A stretch of 25,336 nt of DNA from a virus, in IMG/VR virus record IMGVR_UViG_3300025137_000266, positions 1 to 25,336 of that record; one strand, given 5' to 3'. The notes below the pieces were generated by a model. It worked only from the letters and a program-made list of their open reading frames with translations. It did not search any database and was not told the origin of the DNA. The position numbers and the translations under genes were made by a program. This document shows positions 1,157 through 22,900 of this stretch, piece by piece. Position 1 is the stretch's first letter; every line of letters begins with the position of its first letter.

Positions 1157-2556
1157 TAGTAAGAGTATCCTGATGATGATGTTACACTGCCAGTTGATGC
1201 ACCAGTTTCAGCATCGTTATTGTTAACAACTGTAGCAGAAGATTCCTGTAATGGTGCTTCTACAAATTTGTTGTATTCGCCAGGAGTGACTTCGTAAACA
1301 TACTGATTATTTCTTATTAATCCTGACAGTACTTTACCTGCATTTGATAGATATTGATTTTGTTCAGCATTAGGCAATGCGCCCCATTCAGTGTCAACAT
1401 CATTTATATCAATACTTGCGTCCAATCGATAACTTACATTTTTTGTAAACTTTAATTTTGCATTGTAATTTTTATTGAGATATATTTCTGCCTGTTTAGG
1501 ATTCAACGCAATTTTTCCTTTTGCTGTTTTTCCTACAAGGACTTTGCCTTGCACATTTTTTTCTATCTGTGTATTTGTTGTGCGTTGTTGTTTTAAATTT
1601 AACGGAAAAGAAACTCCTGGTTTAGATGTTGCGCCTAAGTTGTTGGTTCCGGCTTTAACAGCATCTTTTGCAATGCCTATAATTTCTTCACGAGTACCTC
1701 TAGTAGCCTTGCCTGATTTTATCTTCTGATATGTATTAATAGCACTCAGCCCGGCACCTAAAAAATTGCCAGATTGTAGTAGACTCCCTGTGTTTGTGAT
1801 GCCACCCAGCACACCAAATATACCGTCTCCTCCTGTTTGATTTGGAGAAGGTGAATTATCATAATGGAATGTTGCAAATCCTTGCGGATCGCCGCCAACT
1901 GCGCCGTTACGCATTAATACTCCAGAATAAGAAATAGAAAATCTATGTTCATTTAATCCTTGTCCATCTGCTTGATCCATAGATCCATTTGACCAATCGT
2001 TAACAATAGGATTCATCATTTTGTATTCTGTAAACAGTCCCCTGCTTAGTTGGAAAACAGATATAGAATTAAAAAATCTTGCATCGTTGCCGGTGTCTAA
2101 CCCGTACCTCAGTGGTGGACTGACATTGTCATAACCAGCCATCATGTATCCAGTTTGACCTAGATTAGTGTCTACAATATAGTGTTGGTAATAGGATTTC
2201 CAAAATGCTGTGGCCACATCGCCCATGTCGTCATGCAAAGTTATAGTGACTGGTTGATATGTGATACCTGTTTGCACATAATTTTTGAAGTTGTATTGAT
2301 TTTTTTGTTCAACGTTGAAATTGTATGATGGCAAATCAGTTCGTTTTACAATCATACCCAATTCAATTTTTTCAGAACCGCTCACTGCTGACCCAGTGGC
2401 TGCTGGATTGATGTTAAACACCACATGATATAAAAATTTATTTTTTGGAGACAGTTTGAAAGAATCATCTAGATACAGTCTAGCCGCATGTTGATAATCT
2501 TTCATGGTGTCGCCACCAACTAATTGTTTTAGAAAATTAGAGCGCCAGTTTGCCAT
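1156..2556 (-). CDS. Tail-tube-fold baseplate protein (gp48/gp54-like tube initiator)
   Basis: The 466-aa protein has an N-terminal domain (about residues 20-210) resembling the gp19 tube protein two genes upstream: a strand-rich segment FLYHVVFNINPAA, a YNFNVEQKNQYNFKNY stretch, then TYQPVTITLHDD, which parallels TWDPITINVRDD in gp19. In T4, gp48 and gp54 use this same fold to cap the baseplate and start tube polymerisation, so a tube-initiator role is the best guess. The C-terminal half contains a Gly-rich hydrophobic stretch near 245-275 and ends in a Ser/Thr/Asn-rich tail. The gene has its own late promoter box (CATAAATA) only 6 nt before the ATG and no ribosome site. Its stop overlaps the next start as TAATG. 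Confidence 0.55.
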   Translation of the reverse strand: MANWRSNFLKQLVGGDTMKDYQHAARLYLDDSFKLSPKNKFLYHVVFNINPAATGSAVSGSEKIELGMIVKRTDLPSYNFNVEQKNQYNFKNYVQTGITYQPVTITLHDDMGDVATAFWKSYYQHYIVDTNLGQTGYMMAGYDNVSPPLRYGLDTGNDARFFNSISVFQLSRGLFTEYKMMNPIVNDWSNGSMDQADGQGLNEHRFSISYSGVLMRNGAVGGDPQGFATFHYDNSPSPNQTGGDGIFGVLGGITNTGSLLQSGNFLGAGLSAINTYQKIKSGKATRGTREEIIGIAKDAVKAGTNNLGATSKPGVSFPLNLKQQRTTNTQIEKNVQGKVLVGKTAKGKIALNPKQAEIYLNKNYNAKLKFTKNVSYRLDASIDINDVDTEWGALPNAEQNQYLSNAGKVLSGLIRNNQYVYEVTPGEYNKFVEAPLQESSATVVNNNDAETGASTGSVTSSSGYSY

Positions 2557-2562
2557 TTTAAA

Positions 2563-2570
2563 TATTTATG
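2563..2570 (-). promoter_or_regulatory. Late promoter box CATAAATA, near-leaderless
   Basis: On the minus strand the box is followed by six bases (TTTAAA) and then the ATG at 2556. If initiation follows the T4 late rule (box at -13 to -6), the mRNA starts one base before the ATG. There is no Shine-Dalgarno sequence in between. Confidence 0.65.
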
Positions 2571-2588
2571 GCGTTTAAAAAAGTGGTA

Positions 2589-3215
2589 TTAAATTCCGCC
2601 GCCGGTAGCCGCTGTAGATATTGTTCTTGCTACTGCTGAACCAATTCCTGTTCCTCTAGGAGTTTGGATTGCATTATCGTATCTAACTGACAATGTAATC
2701 TGCACAGGCTCTGATGTTGCATAAGCAAGTGTACCATACTGAACGTTGTCTAAGTAACAACCATATAGTTCATAGGTCTCTAGCACAGTAGGAGTATTTG
2801 CTCCGTTACCACCATCAAGCATTTCAATTCTACCTGTAAATTTGTAGTCTTGTCCTGATGCCGCTGATGACTGTTCAAAGAAATCAAATTGTTTCTGTAA
2901 TTGTTCACCAACAAGTTTTGTAACTTCGTTGTTCACATCGTCTCTTACATTTATTGTAATAGGATCCCATGTGTGTTTACCAGCCATGTATACTCTTGAG
3001 TTATATGCATCAAGTGTAATTTGGTCAAAAGTAATATTTGGTCTTGTAACATCTACAACCTGCTTAGTAAGTTCAGATCTAGGAGTTGATATACCAAAGC
3101 CTTCAAGGATAATTCTAAACCTATATTGTAGTTTAGGCATTAAAAGGCCTTGTGAGCCTGATGATTGATCACTTGCTAGTGGTACTGTAAATTTTGATAG
3201 TGTTGATACTGCCAT
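2589..3215 (-). CDS. 19: Tail tube protein gp19
   Basis: This 208-aa protein matches the gp19 tail tube family in layout and motifs: LQYRFRIILEGFG near the N-terminus, ITFDQITLDAYNSRVYMAGKHTW in the middle, the WDPITINVRDD strand, and a C-terminal strand VQITLSVRYDNAIQ. Tube subunits stack as hexamers inside the sheath and form the DNA channel. It is a little longer than T4 gp19 (163 aa), partly from a Gly-rich C-terminal tail. The start at 3215 is supported by AGGAGA spaced 6-7 nt upstream. The gene lies directly after sheath gp18, the normal T4 order 18-19, but here the portal gene does not follow. Confidence 0.9.
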   Translation of the reverse strand: MAVSTLSKFTVPLASDQSSGSQGLLMPKLQYRFRIILEGFGISTPRSELTKQVVDVTRPNITFDQITLDAYNSRVYMAGKHTWDPITINVRDDVNNEVTKLVGEQLQKQFDFFEQSSAASGQDYKFTGRIEMLDGGNGANTPTVLETYELYGCYLDNVQYGTLAYATSEPVQITLSVRYDNAIQTPRGTGIGSAVARTISTAATGGGI

Positions 3216-3234
3216 TTGTTTCTCCTAGTATGAA

Positions 3235-3242
3235 TATTTACT
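3235..3242 (-). promoter_or_regulatory. Late-promoter-like box AGTAAATA before gp19
   Basis: The minus-strand sequence AGTAAATA is a weaker match to TATAAATA. It lies 19 nt before the gp19 ATG, with an AGGAG ribosome site between them, so this would be a leadered late transcript of about 14 nt. Read-through from gp18 is also possible. Confidence 0.4.
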
Positions 3243-3272
3243 ATTCAATTATTTTTTGCTGTACTTAAACCT

Positions 3273-6200
3273 TTAAAGGCCTAGTGCAGCTATCTCTCCT
3301 GTATTTTTAAGTCTAATCGGAATGAATATAAACTCTACTGCTTTCACAGGCTCAATAGCCACGTCTACATACAGTTCATTCCTGTCTATTCTTCCTGGTG
3401 TGTTGTTTGATTCATCACATACTACAGCAAAGTCGAATAGTGCTCTTTGTGCTGTTAATTCTAACAAGAATGATTCGATTGCTTGTCTAATTTCATTTCT
3501 TGTGAGTGCATCATTTGGCTCAAATATAAACGGTCTTGCAATCTTATCTAATTGCAGTCTTGTAAATGCAACAAGTCTTGCAACGTTTATTCTGTCTAGT
3601 GCAGATGGTGTTAGTTGTCTTGTTTTTTGTCCAAATGCAACTAAGCCTGCTCCTGTAACAAATGAAATTGGATTGATGTGTACACTGTATAGTGCATCTC
3701 TTAATCCTTCTGATACAGCAGTTGTTTCAAACTCGCCTTCTCCGTTAATGAAACCAACTGATGATGCATTATCAATAGCACCACGTCTAATACCTGCTGG
3801 TGCAAACCATGGAAACGCTACCTGATCATTGAATGCAATAGTTCTCATCATCATGTGTGATGAAGGTACAGCAACAGATTCACCGTTAAGGTCAGTGGTT
3901 AATCCCGGAGGATAGTACACACCTGTAAAGGAATCAGTAGTTACAAGTCCATCTTCTCCGTTATCAGCCGCGCCTGCTGTGTTGTTTGCATAGTTTGTAA
4001 TCTCAGTTGATGTTGGAGCCAATCTAAATGGAGTATCACCTAAAACAAATGCAGTGTCTTTTCTGTCTGCATTTAGAGTTTCTAAGTTAGAAATAAGTTC
4101 TGGATAGCCTGGAGCCGCAAGTAGATTGAACTCACGCTGTTCTTCTCTTAGAGCAGTAGTAGACTCAACTGTTGCCTTAAGTGCTGTCACAATCATATTT
4201 CTCTGTGCTTTTCTTCCCATAAATGGTGTACCATCTAATTTTAATCCTGAAACAGTAACCCATGCATCTTTTTCGGTAGGTAGTGTTGGATATGTTACTG
4301 TGCTTGGGAAATTAGTTCTATTAAAGTACTCATTTCTAAATGCTGAGACATTGTAACCTGAACGTCTTAGGTTAAATCCTAACATGCCTTTTGGATACAG
4401 TGCTGGCTCTGGAGCATCAATGTCTAGATATGTTGATGTCAGTAAGTCAGTAATTAAAGTTTCTTCGTTGACCACATCTTTTGTGCCATCTGAATGAAAT
4501 CTAAAGTCTGCAAACAGTATACCATCCTGTGAGGTTTGGTCACCGTTGTCGATTAACACAAACTGTGCGCCATCATTTTGTGATGAATCATATCTGTAAA
4601 GTCTTGGATAGTTTTCTAAGTCAGATGTGTCTAACCAAAGATCTCCATCAACAAGTGCTGTGCCGTCGGACTGTGTTGTTGGCTCTGATGCCGAAATAAT
4701 AGGACCAAGTGGGTCTGTGCCTGATAAATTAAATCCTCTAGCATCTGATGTGACATTTTGATATCCAGTCCAGGCAGAGCCGTTATGAATTAAAATGTCT
4801 ACTTCGTCAACAGTTGTGTTGTACCAATTTTGTAAATCTGCTGGATCTTTTGTAGGCTGATTCAATGACTGTATCGCTGTGTACACTGTGCCACTGTCTG
4901 GTCGGTTTGATACTGGTGTCCAAAGTGATGCCACAAAAGCAAATGTTCTATTTGCCTCAGTTTGATCTGCTGTGGATGAAAAGTCATCTTTATCGCCTGC
5001 TGGTGCAATGTACAAGTTCGCAATTTTCTCTGAAGCTAGATCTAAATTATCACCGTATGTGTTTGCAAAAGTTGTATTGTAACCTAAGTCAGCCATTGCG
5101 GTACCACTTACATCTGAGAAGTAAATTTGACCACCCAGTGCGTGTGATAGAGTAATTCTTTTTGAACTTGCATCATAGTTTGCACTAATGTTTGTAAAAC
5201 CTGCGGCTGATATGGCTGTGACAAAGTCATCTGCATCTTCACCACCGATAGTTACAGTTTTTGTTACTAACTGGTTGCCTGCTGAGATTGATGTGTTGCC
5301 TGTATCAAGAATAGTTTCTGCCATTCTAATTGTATCACCATCTGAAAAGCCTGCCGCGGTCTTTGTTGTTATTTTGCTTGAAGTAATTGCAGTTGCTGAA
5401 CCAACTCCTGCGGCTCTTCTAAAGACCACATAGTCAATTAATTCACCGGAATCTTGTGTAGAATCGTCCCACTCTGATTCACCAGTGTTTACTTGAACAT
5501 ATGTGTCGTTAACAGTAAGATTGATACCGCCACCTATTCTGTCTAACTGTTGAATTGCCTGTTCATGATTTTTGTACACAGGTGTTTCTTGTGATTCAAA
5601 CGCTCCTGCAGTCTCTGAGAATTTTTTCACAGCAAAGTCAGCGCCACCGTTTGGCTCTGTCTGTTGGATCCAAACTGACCCAGAAGGTCTTGGGAATGTG
5701 TCGCTTGTTCTAAAACCGTGATCTTCAGTGTGTTGTCCTATGAATACTTTAGGAATAAAATATCTTCCTGGTGTGATTCCAACATCAGTAAATGCTGTAC
5801 CAGCCACTTCGCTGATGATAATTGAAGACACTACAGCAGTTGTAGATGAGTCATCACCTGATGCTGAAGGAATAGCGTATATTTCCAATTTGCCATCAAC
5901 TGCCGCGGCACTTACACCCGACGCTGAATTATTAATCGCTGTTGCAAATGTTGTTACAGTGGTACCAAGTGTGTCAATTACTATGCCATTGATGCTTACT
6001 GAGTCAGCGTTTGTAACTGTTGGATTTGTTAATGTTCCTGTAACGGTTGCGTGTGCTGTTGCCCAAGATGCATCTGCAGTCGCAGAAGAAGCAGAGCCAA
6101 CCTGTACCCATGTGTTTGATCTTGTTTTGTAAAACAATCTGTTGAATGGATTTGTTGCCACTACAGCATAATCACCAATTGATCCAAAATCTGTTTTTGG

Positions 6201-6722: not shown

Positions 6723-6746
6723 TTGTCGTTTACTCCTTGTTGCGAA

Positions 6747-6754
6747 TATTTATA
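6747..6754 (-). promoter_or_regulatory. Late promoter TATAAATA for gp18 (leadered)
   Basis: A perfect minus-strand TATAAATA lies 24 nt before the gp18 ATG, with AAGGAG between. The predicted mRNA has a leader of about 19 nt carrying the ribosome site. It is the leadered counterpart of the near-leaderless promoters elsewhere in this window. Confidence 0.7.
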
Positions 6755-6803
6755 GCGATTGGACTGATTTATTAAAAGAAATAAAGAGTGCCAAAAAGGT
6801 GCA

Positions 6804-6811
6804 TATAAATA
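6804..6811 (+). promoter_or_regulatory. Late promoter TATAAATA for the HNH-like gene, near-leaderless
   Basis: A perfect plus-strand TATAAATA is followed by AGTAC and then an in-frame GTG at 6817. The T4 rule puts the transcript start exactly on that GTG. The box would lie inside the coding region if the earlier GTG at 6799 were used, so it decides the start. Confidence 0.6.
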
Positions 6812-6816
6812 AGTAC

Positions 6817-7182
6817 GTGCTTTATTCAAACGGATCAACAAGACCTTTGTGTCAAGAGTGTAATAGCAAGCCGGCTGCCTACAACTACCGTCGAAGCAAT
6901 AAAGTTTATTACAGAAAAAAATGTGATGCATGTATAAGAAAATCCTCCACATCAACAATTACTACTCCGGCATGGCAACGTGCAGGTTATACAAAAAAAT
7001 CAAATTGTGAGATGTGTGGGTTCACAGCACAGCACCCATATCAATTGGATGTACATTACATAGATGGCAATATGACAAACAATGGCAATGGAAACCTTAA
7101 AACTGTGTGTGCAAATTGCAACAGACTCATACATGTAAAAAAACAAAAATGGCGTCAGGGTGATCTGGTTGCTGATCGCTAA
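6817..7182 (+). CDS. HNH-like zinc-binding protein, probably catalytically degenerate
   Basis: This small basic protein (121 aa from GTG 6817) carries four Cys pairs: LCQEC, KKCDAC, CEMC and CANC. The second half reads VHYIDGNMTNN followed by NLKTVCANCNRLIH, the outline of an HNH nuclease zinc finger (usually VHHIDGN...NL..LC..CH). The second His of the HH pair is Tyr and the His after the last Cys is Asn, so the metal-binding scaffold is kept while the catalytic site looks damaged. I recall similar small proteins in marine T4-likes. It may be a structural or DNA-binding zinc protein, or a relic of a homing endonuclease. The frame is also open from a GTG at 6799, but the late box favours 6817. 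Its stop overlaps the convergent gp1 stop by 4 nt. Confidence 0.7.
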   Translation: MLYSNGSTRPLCQECNSKPAAYNYRRSNKVYYRKKCDACIRKSSTSTITTPAWQRAGYTKKSNCEMCGFTAQHPYQLDVHYIDGNMTNNGNGNLKTVCANCNRLIHVKKQKWRQGDLVADR

Positions 7183-7793
7183 AACAACATTGCCGGCATA
7201 AGTTTAAGTTTCATAGATATTTCAACCTGCTTATGAAGATCTTCTAAAGTTGAATTATTATAAATTGTTATGTCAAAATCAGTGTTTGCCCATGCCCATT
7301 CAGATGCATGAATGTCAGTAGGTTCAATATTCTTGTCCTTGTAATCTGTAAACCACTGCGGGTCTTGTCCTCTTTTTACAGTGACCATGTGTCCTTTAAG
7401 TGTTTTGATCATTTTGACTTCATTAGGAAAACGGACATCTGGTATTACCCAATTTTGTTGTGGATGGTCCATAATTTTTTGTTTGACTAGGCTGACCCAG
7501 ATACCATCAAAAAAACCATGTCTCATACATTCAGTACCGAATACTTGTAAAACATATCTTGGTGTTATTTCTTGTTGAAGTTCCTCTGTCCAGAAAGCGT
7601 CAGGCTGTTCTCGCCAATTGCGACCTTCTGCAGTGTCACCTTCCAACATGTCTCTTGGCCAGTTAAACACAGAAGCAACACCATCTTTCAGTTTATCTGC
7701 AAAACTAATTTTTTGGAAATTATGTTTTTCAACAAGAGTGTCCGCAACAGTGCCTTTGCCTGAGCCTATCAAGCCGCATAATCCTATAAGCAT
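7179..7793 (-). CDS. 1: Deoxynucleoside monophosphate kinase (T4 gp1-like)
   Basis: The 204-aa protein starts with a P-loop, GLIGSGKGT (residues 7-15), followed by FADKLKDGVASVFNWPRDMLEG, a lid-like region with YVLQVFGTECMR, and VIPDVRFPNE. This is the pattern of T4 gp1-type dNMP kinases (T4 gp1 is about 241 aa), which phosphorylate dGMP, dTMP and, in T4, hydroxymethyl-dCMP to diphosphates for phage DNA synthesis in the cytoplasm. It lies 31 nt after the gp13 stop on the same strand, so it is probably co-transcribed with late genes even though the T4 enzyme is an early product. No clear ribosome site precedes the ATG (only TAAGA). The 3' end overlaps the HNH-like gene by 4 nt. Confidence 0.85.
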   Translation of the reverse strand: MLIGLCGLIGSGKGTVADTLVEKHNFQKISFADKLKDGVASVFNWPRDMLEGDTAEGRNWREQPDAFWTEELQQEITPRYVLQVFGTECMRHGFFDGIWVSLVKQKIMDHPQQNWVIPDVRFPNEVKMIKTLKGHMVTVKRGQDPQWFTDYKDKNIEPTDIHASEWAWANTDFDITIYNNSTLEDLHKQVEISMKLKLMPAMLF

Positions 7794-7824
7794 GTCTTAG
7801 TATAAAATATTTTAAAAAGAAAGT

Positions 7825-8610
7825 CTAGCCAATTGTGAAACTAAGTGGAGTACCACCTTCTGAGTAATTTCCAATTTCCTGTTCTAGTCTGGTCATTTCG
7901 TTTATTGCTTCATTTTTCAAAGCATCACCATTCAAAGTACCGCCACCTTGTGGCCCTGCAATCTGAGAAAATTTAGATCTGGCTTCGCCTAGTGTATATT
8001 TGGACACTGCTAATGTATACTCTCTGACCCATGGTTTTGCAAATACATCACTTAATAATATAAAGTCTGGACGATAATTGTATTGTTCTATTAAAACAGT
8101 TTCTTTGTGACGTTGTCTTCTAAAAATTGTAAGTCGTCTAGTAGGTTGATCATATTTAAAATTTATAAATCCGCCAAACATTCTTGCCACTAATTCTTGA
8201 TATCCGGCAAACATATCGTATGTGGCCAATCCGCCAATTCTTCCTGTTTGTAAAAGATACACGTTAGTATATGCTAATTCAAATGGATCAAACGATGTGC
8301 CACCTTCTGATCCTGAAGCGCCACCAACAGTTCTTCTGTATATTTTTTTTACATTCATTATTTCTGCTGGCATTACATAGGTGGTTTGATCTGGTTGTAG
8401 ATCTAGAAATCCATATGATTCTTCAACAGAATTACTTGATCTCTGTCTGAATTTATCCACTGCTGTAATAAAGGCATTTTCCAAATGTTTAGGATCAAGT
8501 TCAACTTCGATCATGCCATCGCCAAGTCTTACTTTGACATAATCGTATATTTCTTGTTTTGCCGCGTTTATTTGATTGTCTGTGGCTTCTGATAGTGCTG
8601 TGTCTGGCAT
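7825..8610 (-). CDS. 13: Neck protein gp13
   Basis: This 261-aa protein begins MPDTALSEATDNQINAAK and contains SNSVEESYGFLDLQPDQT, FELAYTNVYLLQTG, YDMFAGYQELVARMFGGF and LGEARSKFSQIAGPQGGG. It ends PLSFTIG. I recognise this as the gp13 neck protein of marine T4-likes (T4 gp13 is 309 aa). gp13 and gp14 form the head-tail connector that closes the filled head below the portal and receives the tail. The family-typical N-terminus places the start at 8610, only 5 nt after a CATAAATA box and without a ribosome site. Its usual partner gp14 is next door but on the opposite strand, which is unusual. Confidence 0.88.
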   Translation of the reverse strand: MPDTALSEATDNQINAAKQEIYDYVKVRLGDGMIEVELDPKHLENAFITAVDKFRQRSSNSVEESYGFLDLQPDQTTYVMPAEIMNVKKIYRRTVGGASGSEGGTSFDPFELAYTNVYLLQTGRIGGLATYDMFAGYQELVARMFGGFINFKYDQPTRRLTIFRRQRHKETVLIEQYNYRPDFILLSDVFAKPWVREYTLAVSKYTLGEARSKFSQIAGPQGGGTLNGDALKNEAINEMTRLEQEIGNYSEGGTPLSFTIG

Positions 8611-8615
8611 AATGT

Positions 8616-8623
8616 TATTTATG
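8616..8623 (-). promoter_or_regulatory. Late promoter box CATAAATA for gp13, leaderless
   Basis: On the minus strand the box is followed by ACATT and the gp13 ATG. T4 spacing puts +1 on the A of the ATG. No ribosome site is present. A second box lies 25 nt further upstream. Confidence 0.65.
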
Positions 8624-8647
8624 GACGTATAGGATCTGGCATTGGGA

Positions 8648-8655
8648 TATTTATA
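8648..8655 (-). promoter_or_regulatory. Second late promoter box TATAAATA upstream of gp13
   Basis: A perfect TATAAATA on the minus strand would start a gp13 transcript with about a 32-nt leader. No AAGGAG-like site lies in that leader, so its use for translation is unclear. Confidence 0.5.
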
Positions 8656-8659
8656 GGCC

Positions 8660-8667
8660 CATAAATA
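8660..8667 (+). promoter_or_regulatory. Late promoter box CATAAATA for gp14, near-leaderless
   Basis: The box is followed by AGAATA and the gp14 ATG at 8674, giving a predicted 1-nt leader. The gp14 start is fixed by its conserved N-terminus. This makes it one of the best cases for leaderless translation here. Confidence 0.7.
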
Positions 8668-8673
8668 AGAATA

Positions 8674-9825
8674 ATGCCTAGGTTGTCTCTATTCAAACCC
8701 GAAAAAGGAAATGATTACACATTCCAAGATCGAAATATTTCTGAAATGTTTCAGATTGGCGGCACAGATGCCTACATTCACAAGTACGTATCTCCAGTTG
8801 ATCAAGGTGAACTTAATGACGCATCACAGCCTCAACGCTCTGGAGATTCACTCAACGAATTAGCAATTCAAGACATGTTGCTTTTGGAAAATAGAGACCG
8901 CAAATACGAGCCAGATGTGTATCACACTCGAGTAATTTACAATGTGTCTGACATAGATTTTGATCTGTCTCAGTTTGGATTATTTTTACAAAATGATCAA
9001 CTGTTTATGACCTTTCATATCAAAGACATTGTTGAAGCGTTAGGAAGAAAAATTATGTCTGGTGATGTAATTGAATTACCACATCTAAAAGATGATCATT
9101 CTCTAGATGAAACAGACACAGAAGCATTGAAAAGATATTATGTAGTTGAAGACGTATCCAGATCAGCTGAAGGGTATTCTAAAACATGGTGGCCACATCT
9201 GTACAGGGTAAGAGTAAAAGGAATCACAGACGCACAAGAGTTTAGAGATATACTTGGCGACAAGGATGAAAATGTATCACAAAAAACTAGAGACAAAGAT
9301 ATAGAAATTAACACAGCAGTGGTCGACCAAGCAGAATCAGATGCACCTCAGTCTGGCTACAACACAAAACAATTACATGTGATGCCTACAGATGAAGAAG
9401 GAAAAGTTGCACTAGTCACAGTAGACGATGATGATTTACTAACAGACACAGGACATATAAATGTTGACAAAGTGTATCAAACACCTCAAGCCAATGGCTA
9501 TCTAGAAGGTTATCTCACAGGAGATGGGATTCCAGCCAATGGAGAAACCTATACAGCGGCTACAACATTTCCGGCCAATCCAGTTGTAGGAATGTTTGTA
9601 CTACGTACTGATTATGCACCAAATAGATTGTTTAGATATGATGGGAAAAGATTTGTGAAAATAGAAGATAACGTAAGACAGACAATGACACAGAGCAGTA
9701 CCAGAAACACACAGAAAACTGGCTTTATCAACAACAACAACACCACTACACTTGCTGACGGATCATCAACTACGCCTGAACGTGTAGCACTTAGCAAGTT
9801 GTTAAAACCACAGGCGGATAATTAA
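8674..9825 (+). CDS. 14: Neck protein gp14
   Basis: The 383-aa protein starts MPRLSLFKPEKGNDYTF and carries FDLSQFGLFLQNDQLFMTFH, IMSGDVIELPHLKDD and WWPHLYRVR, the signature of gp14 neck proteins in marine T4-likes (T4 gp14 is 256 aa). With gp13 it builds the neck on which the tail docks. The N-terminal domain spans about residues 1-200. A linker follows, and then a C-terminal domain with NRLFRYDGKRFVKIED (about 317-332) and a Thr/Asn-rich tail, which account for the extra length. The ATG lies 6 nt after a late promoter box. The stop overlaps the gp15 start as TAATG. The gene is divergent from gp13 instead of co-directional. Confidence 0.9.
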   Translation: MPRLSLFKPEKGNDYTFQDRNISEMFQIGGTDAYIHKYVSPVDQGELNDASQPQRSGDSLNELAIQDMLLLENRDRKYEPDVYHTRVIYNVSDIDFDLSQFGLFLQNDQLFMTFHIKDIVEALGRKIMSGDVIELPHLKDDHSLDETDTEALKRYYVVEDVSRSAEGYSKTWWPHLYRVRVKGITDAQEFRDILGDKDENVSQKTRDKDIEINTAVVDQAESDAPQSGYNTKQLHVMPTDEEGKVALVTVDDDDLLTDTGHINVDKVYQTPQANGYLEGYLTGDGIPANGETYTAATTFPANPVVGMFVLRTDYAPNRLFRYDGKRFVKIEDNVRQTMTQSSTRNTQKTGFINNNNTTTLADGSSTTPERVALSKLLKPQADN

Positions 9826-11306: not shown

Positions 11307-11309
11307 AGT

Positions 11310-11317
11310 ATAAAATA
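11310..11317 (+). promoter_or_regulatory. Late-promoter-like box ATAAAATA for the Nudix gene
   Basis: The sequence TATAAAATA (11309-11317) is a TATAAATA box with one extra A. It sits 5 nt before the Nudix ATG at 11323, so the geometry matches the near-leaderless promoters elsewhere in the window. Confidence 0.45.
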
Positions 11318-11322
11318 CTTGT

Positions 11323-11745
11323 ATGAGTGAAATAATTTGTTCTGGCTGTCTGTTCTATGCCAAACTTACAAAAAGATTTTTGTTTCTGAGTCGTTCAGCA
11401 AAACAAAAAGGCACATGGGGCATGGTTGGTGGGAAATCCATTGATACTGAAACTCCATGGCAAGGACTCCAAAGAGAGATTGTTGAAGAGGTTGGCTTTG
11501 CGCCTACAATCTTAAAAACAATACCTTTAGAATTATTTGTATCCAAAGACACTAAATTCAAGTTTCATACCTTTGTATGTGTAGTAGATCAAGAATTTAC
11601 GCCCAGACTGAACCAAGAGCACTCAGGATATGCTTGGGTGTCTATGAATGCATGGCCACTGCCTCTGCATGAAGGTGTTAGAAAAACTTTACAAAACAAA
11701 CAGATTAAAACTAAATTGCAAACTATTTTAGACTTGATAGTCTAA
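11323..11745 (+). CDS. Nudix hydrolase
   Basis: A perfect Nudix box GX5EX7REUXEEXGU is visible: Gly37, Glu43 and REIVEEVGF at 51-59. The 140-aa length fits a single-domain enzyme. Nudix hydrolases cleave nucleoside diphosphates linked to another group, such as oxidised dNTPs, ADP-ribose, Ap4A or RNA caps; the substrate cannot be read from the sequence. T4 has NudE, and marine T4-likes often carry MutT-like genes. The gene follows gp15 by 16 nt behind a TATAAAATA box and has no ribosome site. Its stop codon abuts the stop of the convergent fibre gene with no gap (TAA then TTA), and a 7-bp hairpin covers its last codons. Confidence 0.9.
   Translation: MSEIICSGCLFYAKLTKRFLFLSRSAKQKGTWGMVGGKSIDTETPWQGLQREIVEEVGFAPTILKTIPLELFVSKDTKFKFHTFVCVVDQEFTPRLNQEHSGYAWVSMNAWPLPLHEGVRKTLQNKQIKTKLQTILDLIV
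11728..11745. other. Hairpin at the convergent gene junction (TTAGACT-TGAT-AGTCTAA)
   Basis: A perfect 7-bp inverted repeat with a 4-nt loop covers the last codons and stop of the Nudix gene. No T-run follows on either strand, so it is not a standard terminator. It may stabilise 3' ends or impede read-through. Confidence 0.4.
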
Positions 11746-14700
11746 TTACATCATTGTGATCATGATGTCGATGACATCATTGCCGGCAGTATCTTTACTC
11801 TCTAATGCTTTACCTATCACTGTACCAATAGATGGATTTGCTTCTGCTCTGGCTCTTCCGTTGCCTGCAGATACCAATAAGTCTCCTGGATTGATTGTGC
11901 CAGTCACTTTGCAAGGAACACGTCCAGTCATTGCTAGTTTTACACCAACTGCACCTTCATTTAAAAGGAAGCCTGGTTCTGTGGATATAACACCTGCAAC
12001 AGATGCATGAGCATCTTCATTGCACTTGCCAACTTTTTTGTTGCCGGTAAAATGCACAACATCCCCTGGTTCTAGATTGGTCTCGTCTGTTGGAAATATC
12101 TCAGCCAAGTCAGCATATTGTGCCTGTGTCACAGTACCAGTTATTGTACCTGAGACTCTCAATGCTTCATTTATCAATATTTCTGCAGAGTCAGTTGATT
12201 GAATTATGTTTACGTCTAGCACAGTGGTAACCAAACTGGTACAACTGGCAATCACAGTACCGCCTGATGTGATTGTTAAGTTTGTGTCATCCCCTTCAAT
12301 TTTCTCACCAGCACCAAATACTAAACCAACACTGGTTGGAAGGTGTACATCTGTAGTTGCTGAAAGATTAATTTTTGCACCTGAGTCAATGGTTAAGTCT
12401 GTACCGTCAGATGCTATTTTTTCATTAGCATCAACAAATTGAATTGGTATTCCACTTGGTACAACAACTGCGGCCGCGGCACTCAAATTAATATTGTTGC
12501 CTGCTATTGTAAGGTCTGTACCATCACCTTCTATCTTCTCGCCATCATTGCCAAAAGTCAAACCAATATTGGCAGGTATGTTTATGTCGCCATTTGCACC
12601 TACTGTGATATTCAAGTCAGTGCCGTCTGATTCAATTTTTTCTGCTGTTGCAAAAGTTAATCCTTTACTTGCGGGTATGTTAACGTCTGCTGTTGGTGAT
12701 AGGTTAATATTATTTCCAGTTATGGTTAAGTCAGTGCCATCACCTTCAATTTTTTCTCCGTCATCACCGAAAGTTATACCAATACTTGCTGGTATATTGA
12801 TGTCACCACCTGATCCAACTGTAATAGTCAAGTCAGTACCATCTGATTCTATTTTTTCTGTTGTTGCAAAGGTCAATCCTTTACTTGCGGGTATGTTTAC
12901 ATCTGCTGTTGGTGATAGGTTAATGTTGTTACCAGTTATGGTTAAGTCAGTGCCATCACCTTCAATTTTTTCTGCATCGTCGCCAAAAGTTAAACCAATA
13001 CTTGCTGGTATGTTGATGTCACCACCTGACCCAACTGCAAAAGTAATGTCTGTGCCGTCACCTGATATACTTTCTTCAGCGGCACCTAGTTGTAGTTGTT
13101 TACTTGCCGCAATCTTCAGTGCTGATACATCGCCATCTAATCTAAACACCTCAGTGGCAGCCCCGCCATCATTCACAGTGAATATTAAATCTTTGTCCGA
13201 AGTTGAATTGGCCACAGTCACATCACCACTTGATTGTGTGGCTGTAAATCCTGAAGTCAATGTAAATGCTGTACCAGTAATTGTTCCACCACCAATTGTA
13301 CCTGTGGTTACTAAATTTTCATTGTCGAAGGAAATAGCACCTGTACTGTTCGTAATAGTTGCCGCATTAATAGTTGTTGTACCACCAATCACAGTAGTAC
13401 CGGTTACACTAGTGCCTTCAAGACTTGCAACTATTGTGGCCTGTGAACTATCTGTTACTGATGTTGCTGTTGCAACAGAGTCTGATAATACTGCTTTGAA
13501 TTTATCATCGCCTTCGTTCCAGTAAAACACTGCGGCGTTTCCTGCTGATCCACGTTGAATGAATATACCAGCATCAACATCCGCACCGCCGGAGTTAGTT
13601 TTGTTTAATTCTATAAGTGCATCTGCAACTTCCAAACTTGTTGTGTTCACTGATGTTGTGGTACCTGACACTGTCAAGTTGCCGCCTATTTGTGCATCGC
13701 CACCAACTTCAATGTTGCCAGTCATGCCTAAGTTTCTAATTGTGTCTATGTCGATATCACCGTCTGCTACAAGTGCTTTGTTGGCTGCCGCTGTGCCGTT
13801 TGTGATGCCATCTATTTTTTCAAGATCAGTTTCATTCATATCAGCCGATCCAATAATGAACGATCCTGTTGCTGTTACATTTCTAAATCCTGCTATGTCT
13901 TTGTTAGAGTCAGCAACAACTGCTTTTGATGCCGCCACAGTTCCATTTGTGATGCCGTCTAATTTTTCCAAATCAGTTTCATTAATATCTGCTGATCCAA
14001 TTATAAATGAACCACCTGATGTGACACTGCCTGATGATGTAATTGCACCTGATGTAATTGTACCTGATGTAATTGTGCTGTTGGTTGTAAATGCACCATT
14101 TGCAAACAGTGCTCCTGATATGTTTACTGCATCAGCAATCTGAATTCCAGTTGAGTCATCGGAAGATATTTCATTAATTTTTATAGTTTGGAAGTCGCCA
14201 GTGGCCGCTGTAATTGTGCCAAGTGTGCCAATATCTTTTGACCCATCTACCACAAGTGCTTTATTAGCTGCCGCTGTGCCGTTTGTGATGCCATCTATTT
14301 TTTCGAGATCAGTTTCATTAATATCTGCTGATCCAATGATGAACGAACTGCCTGATGTAATACTGCTTGACGATGTAATTGCACCTGATGTGACAGTACT
14401 GTTGGTGCTGAATGCTCCGTTTGCAAACAGTGCGCCTGATATGTTTACTGCTTCATCTATTTGCAGTGCAGTTGAATCATCTGATTTAATTGTGCCTGCT
14501 ATTATTAGATTATCATTGATTACAATACCTGTGGAATCTTCAGAAGAAATAGAATTCACTGTGGTGATATCTCCATCCATAGCAATGGTCAACACACCAG
14601 TGGATGCAGTTGAAGTGCTTATTCCGTTACCACCTGAAATCTGTAGCACGTCAGTGCCGCCTTGTAGGTATAATCCCACTGAGTCGTCTCCCGACACTTT

Positions 14701-14865
14701 GAAAATTGTTTCTGAAGCAAGTGCGGCTCTAGAGCCTCCTGCGTTGGTACCATCATGCACAACTAATCTATCATCGGTTGTATCAACAGTGATCTCACCC
14801 ACTGCTCCTGTAAATGCATTATTCTGTGCTGTGGTTCCTCTTCTGAATTGGACTGTTGTTGGCAT
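11746..14865 (-). CDS. Large repeat-rich tail fibre / appendage protein with Mtd-like N-terminus
   Basis: The 1039-aa protein starts MPTTVQFRRGTTAQ and GEITVDTTDDRLVVHDG (residues 1-45), the form of the N-terminal domain of phage tropism-determinant and fibre proteins. Three copies of an SFIIGSADINETDLEK-type repeat follow (about 174-222, 287-335, 335-384). Then comes a beta-repeat shaft of EKIEGDGTDLTI and NIPASIGLTF units with a 72-residue period (about 600-860), and a C-terminal domain starting AQYADLAEIFPTDE (915 on) with GRVPCKVTG and GDLLVSAGNG. I recall this tail end from marine phage fibres, where it may fold or trimerise the tip. A distal host-binding role is inferred. An AATAAATA box overlapping the upstream stop lies 4 nt before the ATG. 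There is no ribosome site. Confidence 0.8.
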   Translation of the reverse strand: MPTTVQFRRGTTAQNNAFTGAVGEITVDTTDDRLVVHDGTNAGGSRAALASETIFKVSGDDSVGLYLQGGTDVLQISGGNGISTSTASTGVLTIAMDGDITTVNSISSEDSTGIVINDNLIIAGTIKSDDSTALQIDEAVNISGALFANGAFSTNSTVTSGAITSSSSITSGSSFIIGSADINETDLEKIDGITNGTAAANKALVVDGSKDIGTLGTITAATGDFQTIKINEISSDDSTGIQIADAVNISGALFANGAFTTNSTITSGTITSGAITSSGSVTSGGSFIIGSADINETDLEKLDGITNGTVAASKAVVADSNKDIAGFRNVTATGSFIIGSADMNETDLEKIDGITNGTAAANKALVADGDIDIDTIRNLGMTGNIEVGGDAQIGGNLTVSGTTTSVNTTSLEVADALIELNKTNSGGADVDAGIFIQRGSAGNAAVFYWNEGDDKFKAVLSDSVATATSVTDSSQATIVASLEGTSVTGTTVIGGTTTINAATITNSTGAISFDNENLVTTGTIGGGTITGTAFTLTSGFTATQSSGDVTVANSTSDKDLIFTVNDGGAATEVFRLDGDVSALKIAASKQLQLGAAEESISGDGTDITFAVGSGGDINIPASIGLTFGDDAEKIEGDGTDLTITGNNINLSPTADVNIPASKGLTFATTEKIESDGTDLTITVGSGGDINIPASIGITFGDDGEKIEGDGTDLTITGNNINLSPTADVNIPASKGLTFATAEKIESDGTDLNITVGANGDINIPANIGLTFGNDGEKIEGDGTDLTIAGNNINLSAAAAVVVPSGIPIQFVDANEKIASDGTDLTIDSGAKINLSATTDVHLPTSVGLVFGAGEKIEGDDTNLTITSGGTVIASCTSLVTTVLDVNIIQSTDSAEILINEALRVSGTITGTVTQAQYADLAEIFPTDETNLEPGDVVHFTGNKKVGKCNEDAHASVAGVISTEPGFLLNEGAVGVKLAMTGRVPCKVTGTINPGDLLVSAGNGRARAEANPSIGTVIGKALESKDTAGNDVIDIMITMM
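11762..11780. other. Second hairpin (ATGATGTC-GAT-GACATCAT) at fibre gene 3' end
   Basis: A perfect 8-bp inverted repeat with a 3-nt loop lies in the codons for the last residues (VIDIMITM) of the 1039-aa fibre protein, 16 bp from the Nudix hairpin. No T-run follows on either strand. Confidence 0.4.
12286..13074 (-). repeat. Tandem shaft repeats, 216-bp period, in the fibre gene
   Basis: The segment encodes alternating EKIEGDGTDLTI and NIPASxGLTF units. Nearly identical DNA recurs at an offset of 216 bp (for example TGTTGGTGAT at 12691 and 12907), equal to 72 codons made of 33- and 39-residue sub-units. The two central copies are best conserved and the flanking ones decay. These look like beta-structured fibre shaft repeats. 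Confidence 0.8.
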
Positions 14866-14869
14866 CGTA

Positions 14870-14877
14870 TATTTATT
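14870..14877 (-). promoter_or_regulatory. Late promoter box AATAAATA before the 1039-aa fibre gene
   Basis: The minus-strand box overlaps the stop of the 366-aa gene and lies only 4 nt before the ATG, the shortest gap in the set. The T4 rule would start the mRNA inside the ATG, so initiation must shift by about 1 nt or the box serves a read-through context. Confidence 0.5.
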
Positions 14878-15976
14878 AAGCTCCTACGTGACTCTCAGTT
14901 AAAGCCAAATCTGTAGTGGTTATACTACCAATAGGTTCCATACAGTCATACACTGTTTGTACACCTACACCAAATGCATCTGTGGCTGCTGTGTCACCAA
15001 CTGCGGCATCATTGTCTTGAAAATCTGTGGCTGTAGAGTCATCTGATAAAGGAAATTCTGATTGTGTTGACAGCGGAAAGCCTGATTTTGAAAAATTTTC
15101 CTCTACAAAAGACACAGTAGTTACATCATCTCCAGTGACAGGAGTTTCACTTTGTGTGATTTTTCCTAACACATTAATAGAATCTTCTACCTGTATGCCT
15201 GTGGATGCATCTGCTCTGATAGGGCCACCAACTGTGATGCCATCGTTAAACAGCACACTGGTTGAATCAGCAGATGAAATGGTTTCTGTAACCAAACTGG
15301 ATGAAGTCAGTATGCCAGAAGCAGTAACATTTCTTAAACTTGTAACATCGATGTTGCCGTCAGCAACCACTGCTTTGTTCGCGGCAGCTGTGCCATTTGT
15401 GATGCTATCAAGTTTTTCTAAATCAGTTTCATTTATATCTGCGTTGCCTATGATGAAAGATGTACCTGCTGTGATACTACCTGTGGCCACAGTAGCGGCT
15501 GATGTGATAGTGCCTGCGGCAGTGATGCCGTCATCAGTAATAATATTACCGCTGGAAGTGATTAAGCCTGTAACATTTACACTGTCTTCGATTTGAATAG
15601 CAGTTGATCCGTCTGCTTTAAGCGGCCCTGCTATTATCAAAGCATCGTTAATTAAAATGCCTGCGGAATCTTGAGATGTAATAATGTTTGTGTCTATTTG
15701 ATTGGCGCTTAACACACCTGATATATTCAAATCATCTTGTACTTGAACACCAGTTGAATCTGTAGATGCAATTACATCTATGTCACCTTGATCAGCAAAT
15801 TCTAACCCATTACCTGCAGAGTTTACACGTAATACTTGGCCAACACCGCCGATTGTGAGTGCTGAACCAGTGCCACCATTTGATAAAGGAATTGTCTCAC
15901 CAGATTGAAATTCTCCTAAACCAGTGGCAACGTTGTCTGCGTCGAATACAACTCTGATTGGGGTTTTATCTGCCAT
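14876..15976 (-). CDS. Repeat-rich virion fibre-like protein (366 aa)
   Basis: No enzymatic domain is visible. The N-terminus (about residues 1-65) contains PLSNGGTGSALTIGGVGQVL, a motif common at the base of phage fibre proteins. The body (66-285) is built from DST(G/A)-type repeats such as STDSTGVQVQDDLNISG and one TSFIIGNADINETDLEKLDS repeat (172-221) that also occurs three times in the next gene. The C-terminal 80 residues are acidic and unique. Shared modules and position point to a fibre or appendage component, perhaps co-assembling with the 1039-aa protein. The TATAAATA box 6 nt before the ATG implies a near-leaderless mRNA. No ribosome site is present. Confidence 0.75.
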   Translation of the reverse strand: MADKTPIRVVFDADNVATGLGEFQSGETIPLSNGGTGSALTIGGVGQVLRVNSAGNGLEFADQGDIDVIASTDSTGVQVQDDLNISGVLSANQIDTNIITSQDSAGILINDALIIAGPLKADGSTAIQIEDSVNVTGLITSSGNIITDDGITAAGTITSAATVATGSITAGTSFIIGNADINETDLEKLDSITNGTAAANKAVVADGNIDVTSLRNVTASGILTSSSLVTETISSADSTSVLFNDGITVGGPIRADASTGIQVEDSINVLGKITQSETPVTGDDVTTVSFVEENFSKSGFPLSTQSEFPLSDDSTATDFQDNDAAVGDTAATDAFGVGVQTVYDCMEPIGSITTTDLALTESHVGA

Positions 15977-15982
15977 GAATAA

Positions 15983-15990
15983 TATTTATA
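15983..15990 (-). promoter_or_regulatory. Late promoter TATAAATA for the 366-aa gene, near-leaderless
   Basis: A perfect minus-strand TATAAATA is followed by TTATTC and the ATG at 15976, predicting a 1-nt leader. It is one of the cleanest examples of the spacing rule in this window. Confidence 0.7.
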
Positions 15991-15993
15991 GAA

Positions 15994-17031
15994 CTAAAAT
16001 TGAAACAGTGTGACTGCATCTTGAGTAGTCAGTGTTGCACCGTTAGCCAATTGAAATGTTTGCCCTGCTTCGGTATACACTGCGGCAGTTTCAATGGTGG
16101 CATTGAACTCTAAAGTAACCGCAGGAGTACTGAGTAAAAGTTGTGTATCTGTTAGTGATGTACTGCCGTCTGAGGTGAAAAGTTTTACAAGTTGCACTGG
16201 TCTAGTCGAAGTTTTATCTGTAGTACCATTCAGTGCAATAGAGTTGGTACCAACTTTGGATTCTGCTGGCAAAATAACTCCTGTGGATGCAATTGATATA
16301 GCGCCACTTCCGTCTGATGAAATGGTAGCACCTCCTAGATCAATTGTTTCTGCAGACAAATACGCAGTCTTCCATCGTCTTCCCTCTTTTCCTAAATCAT
16401 ACACACCATCTTGTGCTGGTACTAGATGTCCATCAAATTCAAAACCTGTGTCTGTAGAATCATCTACACTAAAACTGCTACCTACAATTCTAACATTTTC
16501 TATACCAATACCAATACTGCTACTGTCTTGTACAGATAGTTTTGACCCAACAATTTGTAAGTCGCCAAGGTCAGCGCCAGCACTTGCTGTTGAAGATACT
16601 GTGATGGTGCCATCTGAATTGGTTGTTGTTTCAATGCCTGATCCGCCTCTGATGTATAGAGAACCGCCATCTTGAATTGCTAATCCGGCTGAATCATCGC
16701 CTACAAATGTAATGCCTTGTGCTGAAGTACCTGTTGAACTCACTGTGATACTGCCATCTGAATTGGCAGATGTTTGTATACCATCGCCGCCTTGGATGTA
16801 CAAGGATCCTCCACTTGCAATTTCCACAGTGGCCGAATCGTCCGCCACAAACAGAGTAGTACTGCTACCTCCACCTCCGCCACTAGTAGTGACTAGTGTA
16901 CCGCCTGGAGTAACTCCGTCACCAATTCTTAATTGACCTGTAACAGTGTCGTGTGCAAGATAGGTATCTTCGATAACGTGTGTGGATATGTCTTTGTTTT
17001 TGAAGGAGCCTTTTATTTTTCTAAAAGCCAT
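15994..17031 (-). CDS. Virion structural / fibre-like protein (345 aa)
   Basis: The N-terminus contains GQLRIGDGVTPGGTLV (about residues 32-47), similar in outline to the Mtd-like start of the 1039-aa protein. A Gly-rich linker (51-56) follows, then two tandem ~48-residue repeats (61-100 and 109-148), each with DDSA...GGSLYI(Q/R)GG and NSDG(S/T)ITVSS. The middle has VYDLGKEGRRWKTAYLSAET, a motif I recall from marine phage structural proteins. A tail or fibre role is inferred from the repeats and neighbours. The start at 17031 is supported by AAAAAGGAG placed 6 nt upstream, which also overlaps the end of the 135-aa gene, so the two are translationally coupled. Confidence 0.75.
   Translation of the reverse strand: MAFRKIKGSFKNKDISTHVIEDTYLAHDTVTGQLRIGDGVTPGGTLVTTSGGGGGSSTTLFVADDSATVEIASGGSLYIQGGDGIQTSANSDGSITVSSTGTSAQGITFVGDDSAGLAIQDGGSLYIRGGSGIETTTNSDGTITVSSTASAGADLGDLQIVGSKLSVQDSSSIGIGIENVRIVGSSFSVDDSTDTGFEFDGHLVPAQDGVYDLGKEGRRWKTAYLSAETIDLGGATISSDGSGAISIASTGVILPAESKVGTNSIALNGTTDKTSTRPVQLVKLFTSDGSTSLTDTQLLLSTPAVTLEFNATIETAAVYTEAGQTFQLANGATLTTQDAVTLFQF
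16588..16851 (-). repeat. Two tandem ~144-bp coding repeats in the 345-aa gene
   Basis: The repeats encode DDSATVEIASGGSLYIQGG...NSDGSITVSS and DDSAGLAIQDGGSLYIRGG...NSDGTITVSS. The protein copies are about 48 residues apart. A weaker relative (DDSVGLYLQGG) occurs near the N-terminus of the 1039-aa protein. Confidence 0.75.
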
Positions 17032-17034
17032 GTG

Positions 17035-17442
17035 TTACTCCTTTTTAGATTTTTCGTCTTCTTCGTCTTCTTCTTCGTCTTCTTCGTCTTCTTCGTCTTT
17101 GTCTTTGAATTGGCCTTTGTCATCTACAGGTGTTCCGCCTAGCAGTGTCGGCAAAGGAATACTGTCCTGTTCTGCTTCGATGTCTTCTTCATCGGTGATA
17201 TCATCAATGGTATCTGATTGTTTGCCTTGCTCTGCTTTGGCTAATTCTATTTCTTGTTGTAAAGGAAAAGCAACATTTTTTTTAACTGGATCTTCGCTAT
17301 CGAATCCATTGTCATCTGTGGTTTCTTCTTTGTCTGGCTCTTGAACTTTTACCTGGCCACCAAACATGGCTTTGATTGATTCTGCATCATCGTCATTGTC
17401 TAAAGTGCCATCAATTATTATTTTAAAGTCTCGAAATTTCAC
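17035..17442 (-). CDS. Small very acidic protein of unknown function
   Basis: I do not recognise this 135-aa protein. It starts at a GTG (17442) as MKFRDFKIIIDGTLDNDD, with AESIKAMFGGQVKV nearby (about residues 21-34). The rest is highly charged and likely disordered, ending in a run of Asp/Glu (about 112-131) and then SKKE. The acidic tail is encoded by a TCTTCG-type microsatellite on the plus strand. It lies between a small putative virion protein and the 345-aa fibre-like protein, and an AATAAATA box sits 8 nt before the GTG. Roles as a fibre assembly chaperone or a virion-associated protein are possible, but nothing here proves either. Confidence 0.6.
   Translation of the reverse strand: MKFRDFKIIIDGTLDNDDDAESIKAMFGGQVKVQEPDKEETTDDNGFDSEDPVKKNVAFPLQQEIELAKAEQGKQSDTIDDITDEEDIEAEQDSIPLPTLLGGTPVDDKGQFKDKDEEDEEDEEEDEEDEKSKKE
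17053..17106. repeat. Hexanucleotide-like microsatellite (TCTTCG/TCTTCT)
   Basis: The plus strand reads repeated TCTTCG and TCTTCT units, and the minus strand encodes an Asp/Glu tract at the C-terminus of the 135-aa protein. Such tracts tend to change length by slippage. In-frame change in 3-bp units would alter only the length of the acidic tail. Confidence 0.75.
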
Positions 17443-17450
17443 TGCAAAAG

Positions 17451-17458
17451 TATTTATT
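17451..17458 (-). promoter_or_regulatory. Late promoter box AATAAATA for the 135-aa gene
   Basis: The minus-strand box is followed by CTTTTGCA and a GTG start at 17442, giving a predicted leader of about 3 nt. There is no ribosome site, and the match to the late consensus is 7 of 8. Confidence 0.5.
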
Positions 17459-17463
17459 GTACT

Positions 17464-17829
17464 TTACTGTCCGCCGGATAAGTCTGCTGACACATCCATG
17501 AATGATATTAGATACCAATTGGTTCCATCATACACCCAATTGGTTACATCACCTGATGCAGTCACAATGTCAGTTGAACCGCCTTTAAGTGTGGTACTGG
17601 TAACATCATATGTCACTGCGGCAGTGGAAATCACTGTTATAATCTGTCCTGGTGTGCCATCATCGAATGTGGTCAATGTTTGTGTAGAAGCGTGACTCTT
17701 CCAAAGATTGCCTGTAGCGACACTAGGTGTTGTGTCTGTAGCGGCAAATGTACCAAATGTTCCGGCTGTGTTAGCACCAAATTTTGATTGTACTTCTACG
17801 CTTTCTGAATCTCTTAATACTTTTGCCAT
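17464..17829 (-). CDS. Small putative virion decoration / fibre-base protein
   Basis: This 121-aa, strand-rich protein has the form seen in small marine phage appendage domains: TPSVATGNLWKSHAST (about 34-49), FDDGTPGQIITVIS (55-68) and WVYDGTNWYLISF (98-110). No catalytic motif, signal or membrane segment is visible. It is the first gene after the capsid gene terminator and starts 7 nt after a CATAAATA box without a ribosome site, so it has its own late promoter. A capsid decoration or fibre attachment role would fit the position, but I cannot choose between them. The YDGxxW element recurs in gp14 and gp18. Confidence 0.6.
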   Translation of the reverse strand: MAKVLRDSESVEVQSKFGANTAGTFGTFAATDTTPSVATGNLWKSHASTQTLTTFDDGTPGQIITVISTAAVTYDVTSTTLKGGSTDIVTASGDVTNWVYDGTNWYLISFMDVSADLSGGQ

Positions 17830-17836
17830 TGCGTAC

Positions 17837-17844
17837 TATTTATG
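17837..17844 (-). promoter_or_regulatory. Late promoter box CATAAATA for the 121-aa gene, near-leaderless
   Basis: The box lies between the capsid gene terminator and the 121-aa gene. GTACGCA separates it from the ATG, predicting a leader of about 2 nt. Its position directly after a terminator strongly suggests that it starts a separate transcript. Confidence 0.7.
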
Positions 17845-17851
17845 AAGTCAT

Positions 17852-17880
17852 AAAAAAAGGGGGAATAAATCCCCCCTTTT
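17852..17880 (-). terminator. Strong intrinsic terminator after gp23
   Basis: In the minus-strand transcript AAAAGGGGGG, a short loop (ATTTATT) and CCCCC form a GC stem, followed by seven T residues. It begins 14 nt after the gp23 stop. It is the only textbook rho-independent terminator I see in the window, and it separates the head operon from the fibre genes. Confidence 0.9.
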
Positions 17881-17893
17881 AATTTGTTTAGTC

Positions 17894-22893: not shown

Positions 22894-22900
22894 GTTGTAT

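Follow-up and report, generated by a model that had tools for sequence, protein, structure and literature searches.

Late promoters set at the start codon predict leaderless late mRNAs in an uncultivated T4-like phage

Introduction

Late transcription in phage T4 is a textbook system, in which promoters that depend on gp55, gp33 and gp45 and have no -35 element give rise to late mRNAs led by a Shine-Dalgarno (SD) site. The late box (TATAAATA in T4) spans positions -13 to -6, and variation in its first base, which we also observe here, is known from phages RB49, KVP40 and S-PM2 (PMC1524935). T4 boxes mostly lie some 17-35 nucleotides (nt) before the ATG, with the SD site in between. Here we describe 25.3 kb of sequence from an uncultivated T4-like phage (IMG/VR record IMGVR_UViG_3300025137_000266, positions 1 to 25,336; hereafter the window) and its relatives, in which the same box is, unlike in T4, fused to the start codons of many late genes and conserved in that position, a layout predicted to yield leaderless late mRNAs.

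Bacterial leaderless mRNAs, as known from Mycobacterium, Lactococcus cremoris and Caulobacter, and that of lambda cI likewise have a start codon at or near the 5' end of the transcript and lack an SD site. In leaderless bacterial mRNAs leaders of intermediate length are depleted (PMC10986495, PMC4633059, PMC9031893), and phage transcripts have been described, in a general statement, as often leaderless (PMC5312081). What would distinguish the window and its relatives from these cases is a systematic use of the layout for structural genes, through both phage late and sigma70-type promoters. For metagenomic pelagimyophages the prediction of middle and late promoters failed (PMC7029224), and for the methylophage Melnitz 31 early and 15 late promoters were counted, with no discussion of leaders found there (PMC9004378). 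Our search of the open-access literature found no description of a fusion between a late box and a start codon.

Results

Throughout, d denotes the number of nt separating the last A of the box from the start codon. TAAATA occurs at d = 4-8 before 10 of the 24 gene starts in the window; among the remaining ATGs of the two strands this holds for 1 of 1001 (binomial P ~2e-21). Of the 18 TAAATA hexamers in the window, both strands counted, 10 occupy such a position before a gene start. This proximity is not due to chance. An earlier, sequence-only reading of the window had listed eight such boxes, all of which are present at the spacing that it claimed: CATAAATA at 2563-2570 (minus strand), d=6 to the ATG of the gene for a gp54-like tail protein (1156-2556); TATAAATA at 6804-6811 (plus), d=5 to the GTG at 6817 of an HNH-like gene; CATAAATA at 8616-8623 (minus), d=5 to the ATG of the gp13 head-tail adaptor gene (7825-8610); CATAAATA at 8660-8667 (plus), d=6 to the ATG of the gene for gp14, a virion structural protein (8674-9825); AATAAATA at 14870-14877 (minus), d=4 to the ATG at 14865 of a fibre-like gene of 1039 amino acids (aa); TATAAATA at 15983-15990 (minus), d=6 to the ATG at 15976 of a 366-aa gene; AATAAATA at 17451-17458 (minus), d=8 to the GTG at 17442 of a 135-aa gene; and CATAAATA at 17837-17844 (minus), d=7 to the ATG at 17829 of a 121-aa gene. 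Its list was correct but incomplete, missing two further boxes because the first two box bases vary. Both read TTTAAATA, one at 292-299 (minus; d=6 to the ATG at 285 of a gene that runs off the window) and the other at 22898-22905 (minus; d=4 to the ATG at 22893 of a 78-aa gene).

The position of the box is kept at orthologous genes, as judged by tblastn of the window proteins against all fetched loci, with distinct upstream contexts counted. All 34 gp13 homologues have a box at d=5-7 and none an SD site; the late box is retained in 34 of 38 gp14 homologues; and among the HNH-like homologues it lies at d=5-6 in 29/29, again with no SD site (0/29), while 28 of the 29 start with GTG. In 7 of these 28 a stop codon precedes any alternative start. 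The same holds for smaller sets, namely the homologues of the gp54-like gene (d=5-7 in 7/8, SD site in one), of the 78-aa gene (d=5 in 9/9, SD site in 0/9), of the 121-aa gene (d=6-7 in 5/5), of the 135-aa gene (d=5-8 in 3/3), of the 366-aa gene (d=5-6 in 4/6) and of the gene starting at 285 (TAAATA at d=5-7 in 6/10). The three closest homologues of the 1039-aa gene have d=5, as does a gene of the pelagimyophage HTVC008M whose N-terminus resembles that of the 366-aa gene.

Other late genes of the window follow the leadered arrangement. The sheath gene gp18 is preceded by TATAAATA at 6747-6754 (minus, d=24) and then AAGGAG, with an SD site in 29/32 homologues; the tube gene gp19 by AGTAAATA at 3235-3242 (minus, d=19) and then TAGGAG (SD site in 12/13 homologues); and a gp68-like gene by CTTAAATA at 21714-21721 (minus, d=25) and then AAAGGAGG (SD site in 53/55 homologues). 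AAGGAG had previously been assigned to both gp18 and gp19, which is accurate for the former only. SD sites are also prevalent among homologues of gp23 (84/91) and gp22 (78/80).

The most informative arrangement is that between the divergent gp13 and gp14 genes, where two opposed boxes are accommodated within ~31 nt. The 76 loci yielded 26 distinct sequences of this region, mostly of 30-32 nt and with one box per strand. The box on the gp14 side is at d=6 in 25 of them and at d=7 in one, and that on the gp13 side is at d=5-7 in 23/26; in the remaining three a spurious codon farther upstream was probably taken as the start by the automatic procedure. The window itself has a longer intergenic region (63 nt, the other distinct ones spanning 24-44 nt with a single box per strand), which contains a second, distal gp13 box, TATAAATA at 8648-8655 (minus, d=37). 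This distal box is restricted to the window and its two nearest loci, L211 and L285. HTVC008M shows a similar opposed arrangement at a different gene pair: its gp2 (18916, minus) and gp4 (18943, plus) genes are divergent and 26 nt apart (L375), and their d=5 boxes on the two strands overlap.

Two further observations concern the HNH-like gene. An AAAAGGT-like sequence is kept just 5' of its late box, both in the window (6793-6803, plus) and in homologues. Many homologues also contain an out-of-frame ATG between the box and the GTG, which a transcript starting at the G of the GTG would exclude.

We extended the analysis of box-to-start distances to ten large contigs related to the window (G001-G005, found via gp23, and G015-G019, found via gp14; read in stretches), in which 1252 genes were called, blind to the boxes, as the longest non-overlapping open reading frames with only the first ATG considered. 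TAAATA was found at d = 4-8 before 126 of these genes against 9.2 expected, i.e. about one in ten of all genes in the relatives carries a late box fused to its start codon. Some of the contigs (e.g. G015 and G017) share ancestry, so that per-gene counts are not independent events, but removal of duplicates changed little (119 vs 8.3 expected). TAAATA is among the top three hexamers at this distance, alongside SD hexamers. Some decoy hexamers scored high because they equal the box shifted by one base, and the analysis relied on the distance profile in their place. For d from 0 to 9 the counts are 2, 0, 1, 0, 13, 54, 29, 20, 10 and 5; the range d = 10-15 has counts of 1-5, beyond which a second rise forms a broad leadered class. 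The genome-wide distribution is thus strongly non-random and bimodal, and it is maintained at orthologous genes; the outcome that the sequence-only reading had named as refuting it, distances like those in random sequence, was not obtained. The division of late genes into a leaderless and a leadered or coupled class, as proposed in the sequence-only reading, is borne out by the SD-like sites, which precede only 20 of the 126 box-proximal starts as compared with 95 of the 121 box-distal ones (P = 3e-24). We also noted an enrichment of TAAGTA at d = 4-8 before ATG in the relatives (21 vs 2.1 expected), which is perhaps a variant late box.

The reference phages differ sharply from one another in this respect. 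No box at d = 4-8 was found in T4, Syn9, phiM12 or Cr30, and only one in each of Phosso, PA5oct and Vibrio phage 2.275.O. Of these, Syn9, phiM12, Phosso, PA5oct and 2.275.O share the T4-like late box and a gp55 homologue with the window and its relatives, but their boxes are leadered. On the other hand, there are 4 such boxes in P-SSM2, 15 in HTVC008M, 7 in Mosig and 3 in Melnitz. Because the counts differ so sharply, and phages of similar A+T lack the layout, it is specific to certain lineages and not a matter of A+T content. The pelagimyophages HTVC008M (box consensus NATAAATAGTA) and Mosig and the methylophage Melnitz constitute a separate lineage (Kyanoviridae) with a tighter spacing, most boxes of HTVC008M and Mosig being at exactly d=5. 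With the starts annotated by its depositors, the proximal-box class of HTVC008M comprises gp2, gp3, gp4, gp13, gp48, gp53, the tape measure and a fibre-like gene; the fused layout recurs at gp2, gp3 and gp53 in Mosig and at gp2 in Melnitz (genes of these two phages were named in part by N-terminal similarity).

A late box at -13 to -6 implies a predicted leader of d minus 5 nt. We therefore propose that gp55-type sigma late promoters, without a -35 element, are set so that transcription would start directly on the start codon, at its first base, or no more than ~3 nt away. Such mRNAs would have neither a usable leader nor an SD site, and their translation would proceed by leaderless initiation, with ribosomes acting on a 5'-terminal AUG or, rarely, GUG; the other late genes would rely on leaders with SD sites or on coupling to the upstream gene. 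The boxes, their spacing and conservation, the missing SD sites, the bimodality and the gp55 homologue of the relatives are read from the sequence, and from these we infer the exact start site and the leaderless translation, an interpretation that we consider very probably correct. Near-absence of boxes at d of 3 or less, together with a maximum at d=5, is the pattern required by a start site 6 nt after the box, as any closer box would cut the AUG off the transcript. Independently of the proximal class, the gaps between box and SD site in leadered genes, almost all of at least 4 nt, place the start site no farther than ~5-6 nt from the box. Boxes are also sparse at intermediate d, in line with the gap in leader lengths measured in L. 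cremoris, which are bimodal with none at 4-14 nt (PMC10986495).

A second class of promoters appears to be placed in the same way. In the relatives (G001-G005 and G015-G019) we found sigma70-type promoters 5-8 nt before the ATG, mostly at 6: TATAAT at d=6 occurs 21 times vs 1.6 expected, as compared with 3 vs 2.6 in the reference phages. These sites have strong -35 matches, many of them a full TTGACA at 17 nt; at least 4/6 TTGACA matches are seen in 67% of this class vs 30% of control positions. No such signal precedes the late boxes, where at least 4/6 TTGACA matches occur in 15% vs 14% of control positions, i.e. at background level. A zero leader requires d=6 with a sigma70 promoter and d=5 with a late one, and each class peaks at its own value. 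T at position -1 of the ATG, found in 69% and 67% of the starts in the two predicted leaderless classes vs 32-33% of other starts, fits a pyrimidine-purine initiator at the A of the ATG. Judged by their placement, the two different promoter types converge on the same predicted start point.

Three genes of the window probably belong to the sigma70-type class, to judge from their upstream sequences. The portal gene gp20 is preceded by TATAAT at 24630-24635 (minus, d=7 to the ATG) with TTGCAA at 17-nt spacing (24653-24658), a layout that is the same in relatives. The dNMP kinase gene has TATACT at 7799-7804 (minus, d=5 to the ATG at 7793); its homologues show TATAAT or TATACT at d ~5-7, TAAATA near the start in 0/40 and an SD-like site in 7/40. 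The Nudix gene has TAAAAT at 11311-11316 (plus, d=6 to the ATG at 11323). Here the sequence TATAAAATA had been taken for a variant late box and is better read as a sigma70-type -10 element; the late-box assignment was rejected in view of the homologues, which carry TAAAAT or TACAAT at d=6 and never TAAATA. With sigma70-type promoters likewise set at 6 nt from the ATG, leaderless initiation is probably not confined to the late genes, and the earlier division of late genes into two classes, sound in itself, was too narrow.

Discussion

Several observations weigh against the leaderless interpretation. T at -1 is found in only 2 of the 10 window starts, and where d is 4 or 8 the start site would have to be offset. 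Moreover, two window genes start with GTG (the other 8 of the ten with ATG), a start codon that functions poorly when E. coli and Caulobacter translate leaderless mRNAs (PMC9031893), and gp13 of the window has its second, distal box.

The spread of spacing over d = 4-8, together with a gp55 that is in this group a distant and longer homologue, could indicate that the late sigma starts at a distance slightly different from that in T4, leaving leaders of a few nt rather than none. We consider this unlikely, given that both promoter classes peak at the zero-leader position for their own geometry (d=6 for TATAAT, d=5 for the late boxes), and that T at -1 is enriched in both. It is also quite unlikely that the proximal boxes, although real late promoters, give only a minor transcript, with translation mainly from longer transcripts started upstream. 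Such an explanation would accommodate the gp13 box at d=37 and the start at 285 (minus), which has same-strand genes immediately upstream of it. However, SD-like sites are mostly missing in the proximal class, so that longer transcripts would translate poorly; the gp13/gp14 region is so short that any other promoter would sit inside the opposite coding sequence; and the distal gp13 box occurs only in the window and its two nearest loci.

A/T-rich, unstructured upstream sequence aids initiation on SD-less mRNAs, and TAAATA near the ATG might accordingly be viewed as a translation enhancer or low-structure element within a longer leader instead of a promoter. This we regard as very improbable. 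The enrichment concerns one exact hexamer, with its one-mismatch neighbours and other TAA-hexamers (those containing SD sites aside) far less enriched; the same hexamer is the T4 late box and in these genomes also stands before SD-led genes, at 16-40 nt; an enhancer gives no reason for the floor at d of 3 or less or for the peak at 5; and reference phages with similar A+T lack proximal TAAATA. A related candidate, overlap of the box with TAA stop codons of upstream genes, was rejected, as other TAA-hexamers are not comparably enriched except for SD-containing ones and, more weakly, TAAGTA. Finally, gene starts were called from sequence only, and the start codons could have been misplaced, with true starts downstream behind ordinary leaders and SD sites. 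There is hardly any likelihood of this: as the sequence-only reading had held, conservation of gp13 and gp14 begins at residue 1 (in our data across dozens of distinct sequences) and the N-terminus of the 1039-aa fibre-like protein aligns to phrog_9648 from residue 1, while the starts annotated independently by the depositors of HTVC008M are identical to the proximal-box starts.

With leaderless late mRNAs as the preferred interpretation, the distribution of the layout among virion genes may be of functional relevance. In the window and its relatives the proximal-box class includes gp13, gp14, the gp54-like gene and fibre-like genes, whereas gp18, gp19, gp22 and gp23 are SD-led; in HTVC008M the SD-led genes are gp18, gp19, gp20, gp21 and gp23. 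In T4 the products of the proximal-box group are present in few copies per virion and those of the SD-led group are mostly abundant. If T4 copy numbers apply, low-copy virion parts tend to be leaderless, which is consistent with the layout setting protein ratios, as had been suggested. Because read-through mRNA carries no SD site for the leaderless genes, it would remain untranslated for them, and their expression would depend on their own promoters. The supposed benefits would thus be very compact promoters, silent SD-less read-through transcripts and a modest output of low-copy virion parts. Tentatively, and as a possibility that we do not favor outright, an uncultivated but widespread T4-like group and, separately, SAR11 phages would have adopted a genome-wide leaderless mode through both promoter types, with low-copy neck, baseplate and fibre genes leaderless, high-copy capsid, sheath, tube and scaffold genes SD-led, and only transcripts from a gene's own promoter being productive.

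The layout makes the geometry of the start site readable from sequence alone and would provide one phage with two translation modes for its virion genes. It offers a plausible reason for the failed search for late promoters in pelagimyophage genomes (PMC7029224) and would aid the calling of gene starts in abundant environmental phages. The large natural set of leaderless genes, with orthologues leadered in other phages, is suited to testing the use of leaderless initiation.

As for the machinery, a gp55-like sigma was found in the relatives G001-G006, G015 and G019, as well as in all reference phages tested (the gp55 region lies outside the window fragment), and the gp45 clamp is annotated in HTVC008M. 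Phage-encoded bS21 or IF3 as an enabling factor was rejected, as relatives G001-G007 have neither family and several phages that lack the layout encode them. IF3-like proteins are encoded by the large phages Phosso, Atu_ph07, Vibrio phage 2.275.O and GAP32, and bS21 by Phosso, Atu_ph07, 2.275.O, PA5oct, HTVC008M, Mosig and Melnitz; a contig scan with HTVC008M bS21 returned mostly unrelated planctomycetes. On the host side, a pattern-only count without gene models in 21 SAR11-related genomes gave TATAAT-N6-ATG at ~1.3x and TATAAT-N11-ATG at ~1.2x the reversed-pattern control.

Other features of the fragment

The window gp23 shows 65-70% identity to gp23 of Sinorhizobium phage Phosso, of PA5oct and of the GAP32 group. 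PHROG matches identified the gp54-like tail protein, tube gp19, sheath gp18, a sheath-stabiliser-like gene and fibre-like genes, the gp13 adaptor, the gp14 virion structural protein, gp23, protease gp21 and portal gp20, as well as the dNMP kinase, the Nudix gene and a gene in the scaffold position (gp22-like). The product of the 135-aa GTG gene (17035-17442, minus) has a low-complexity C-terminus in which Asp, Glu and Lys abound, and a 345-aa fibre-like gene follows close behind it.

Terminator runs just 5' of leaderless boxes are weakly more frequent than elsewhere (14/126 vs 43/1005). In the window a terminator-like G/C stem with a T-run is located at 17850-17885, 3' of gp23 and directly before the putative leaderless promoter of the 121-aa gene, and because this stem immediately precedes its promoter, the 121-aa gene probably has a transcription unit of its own.

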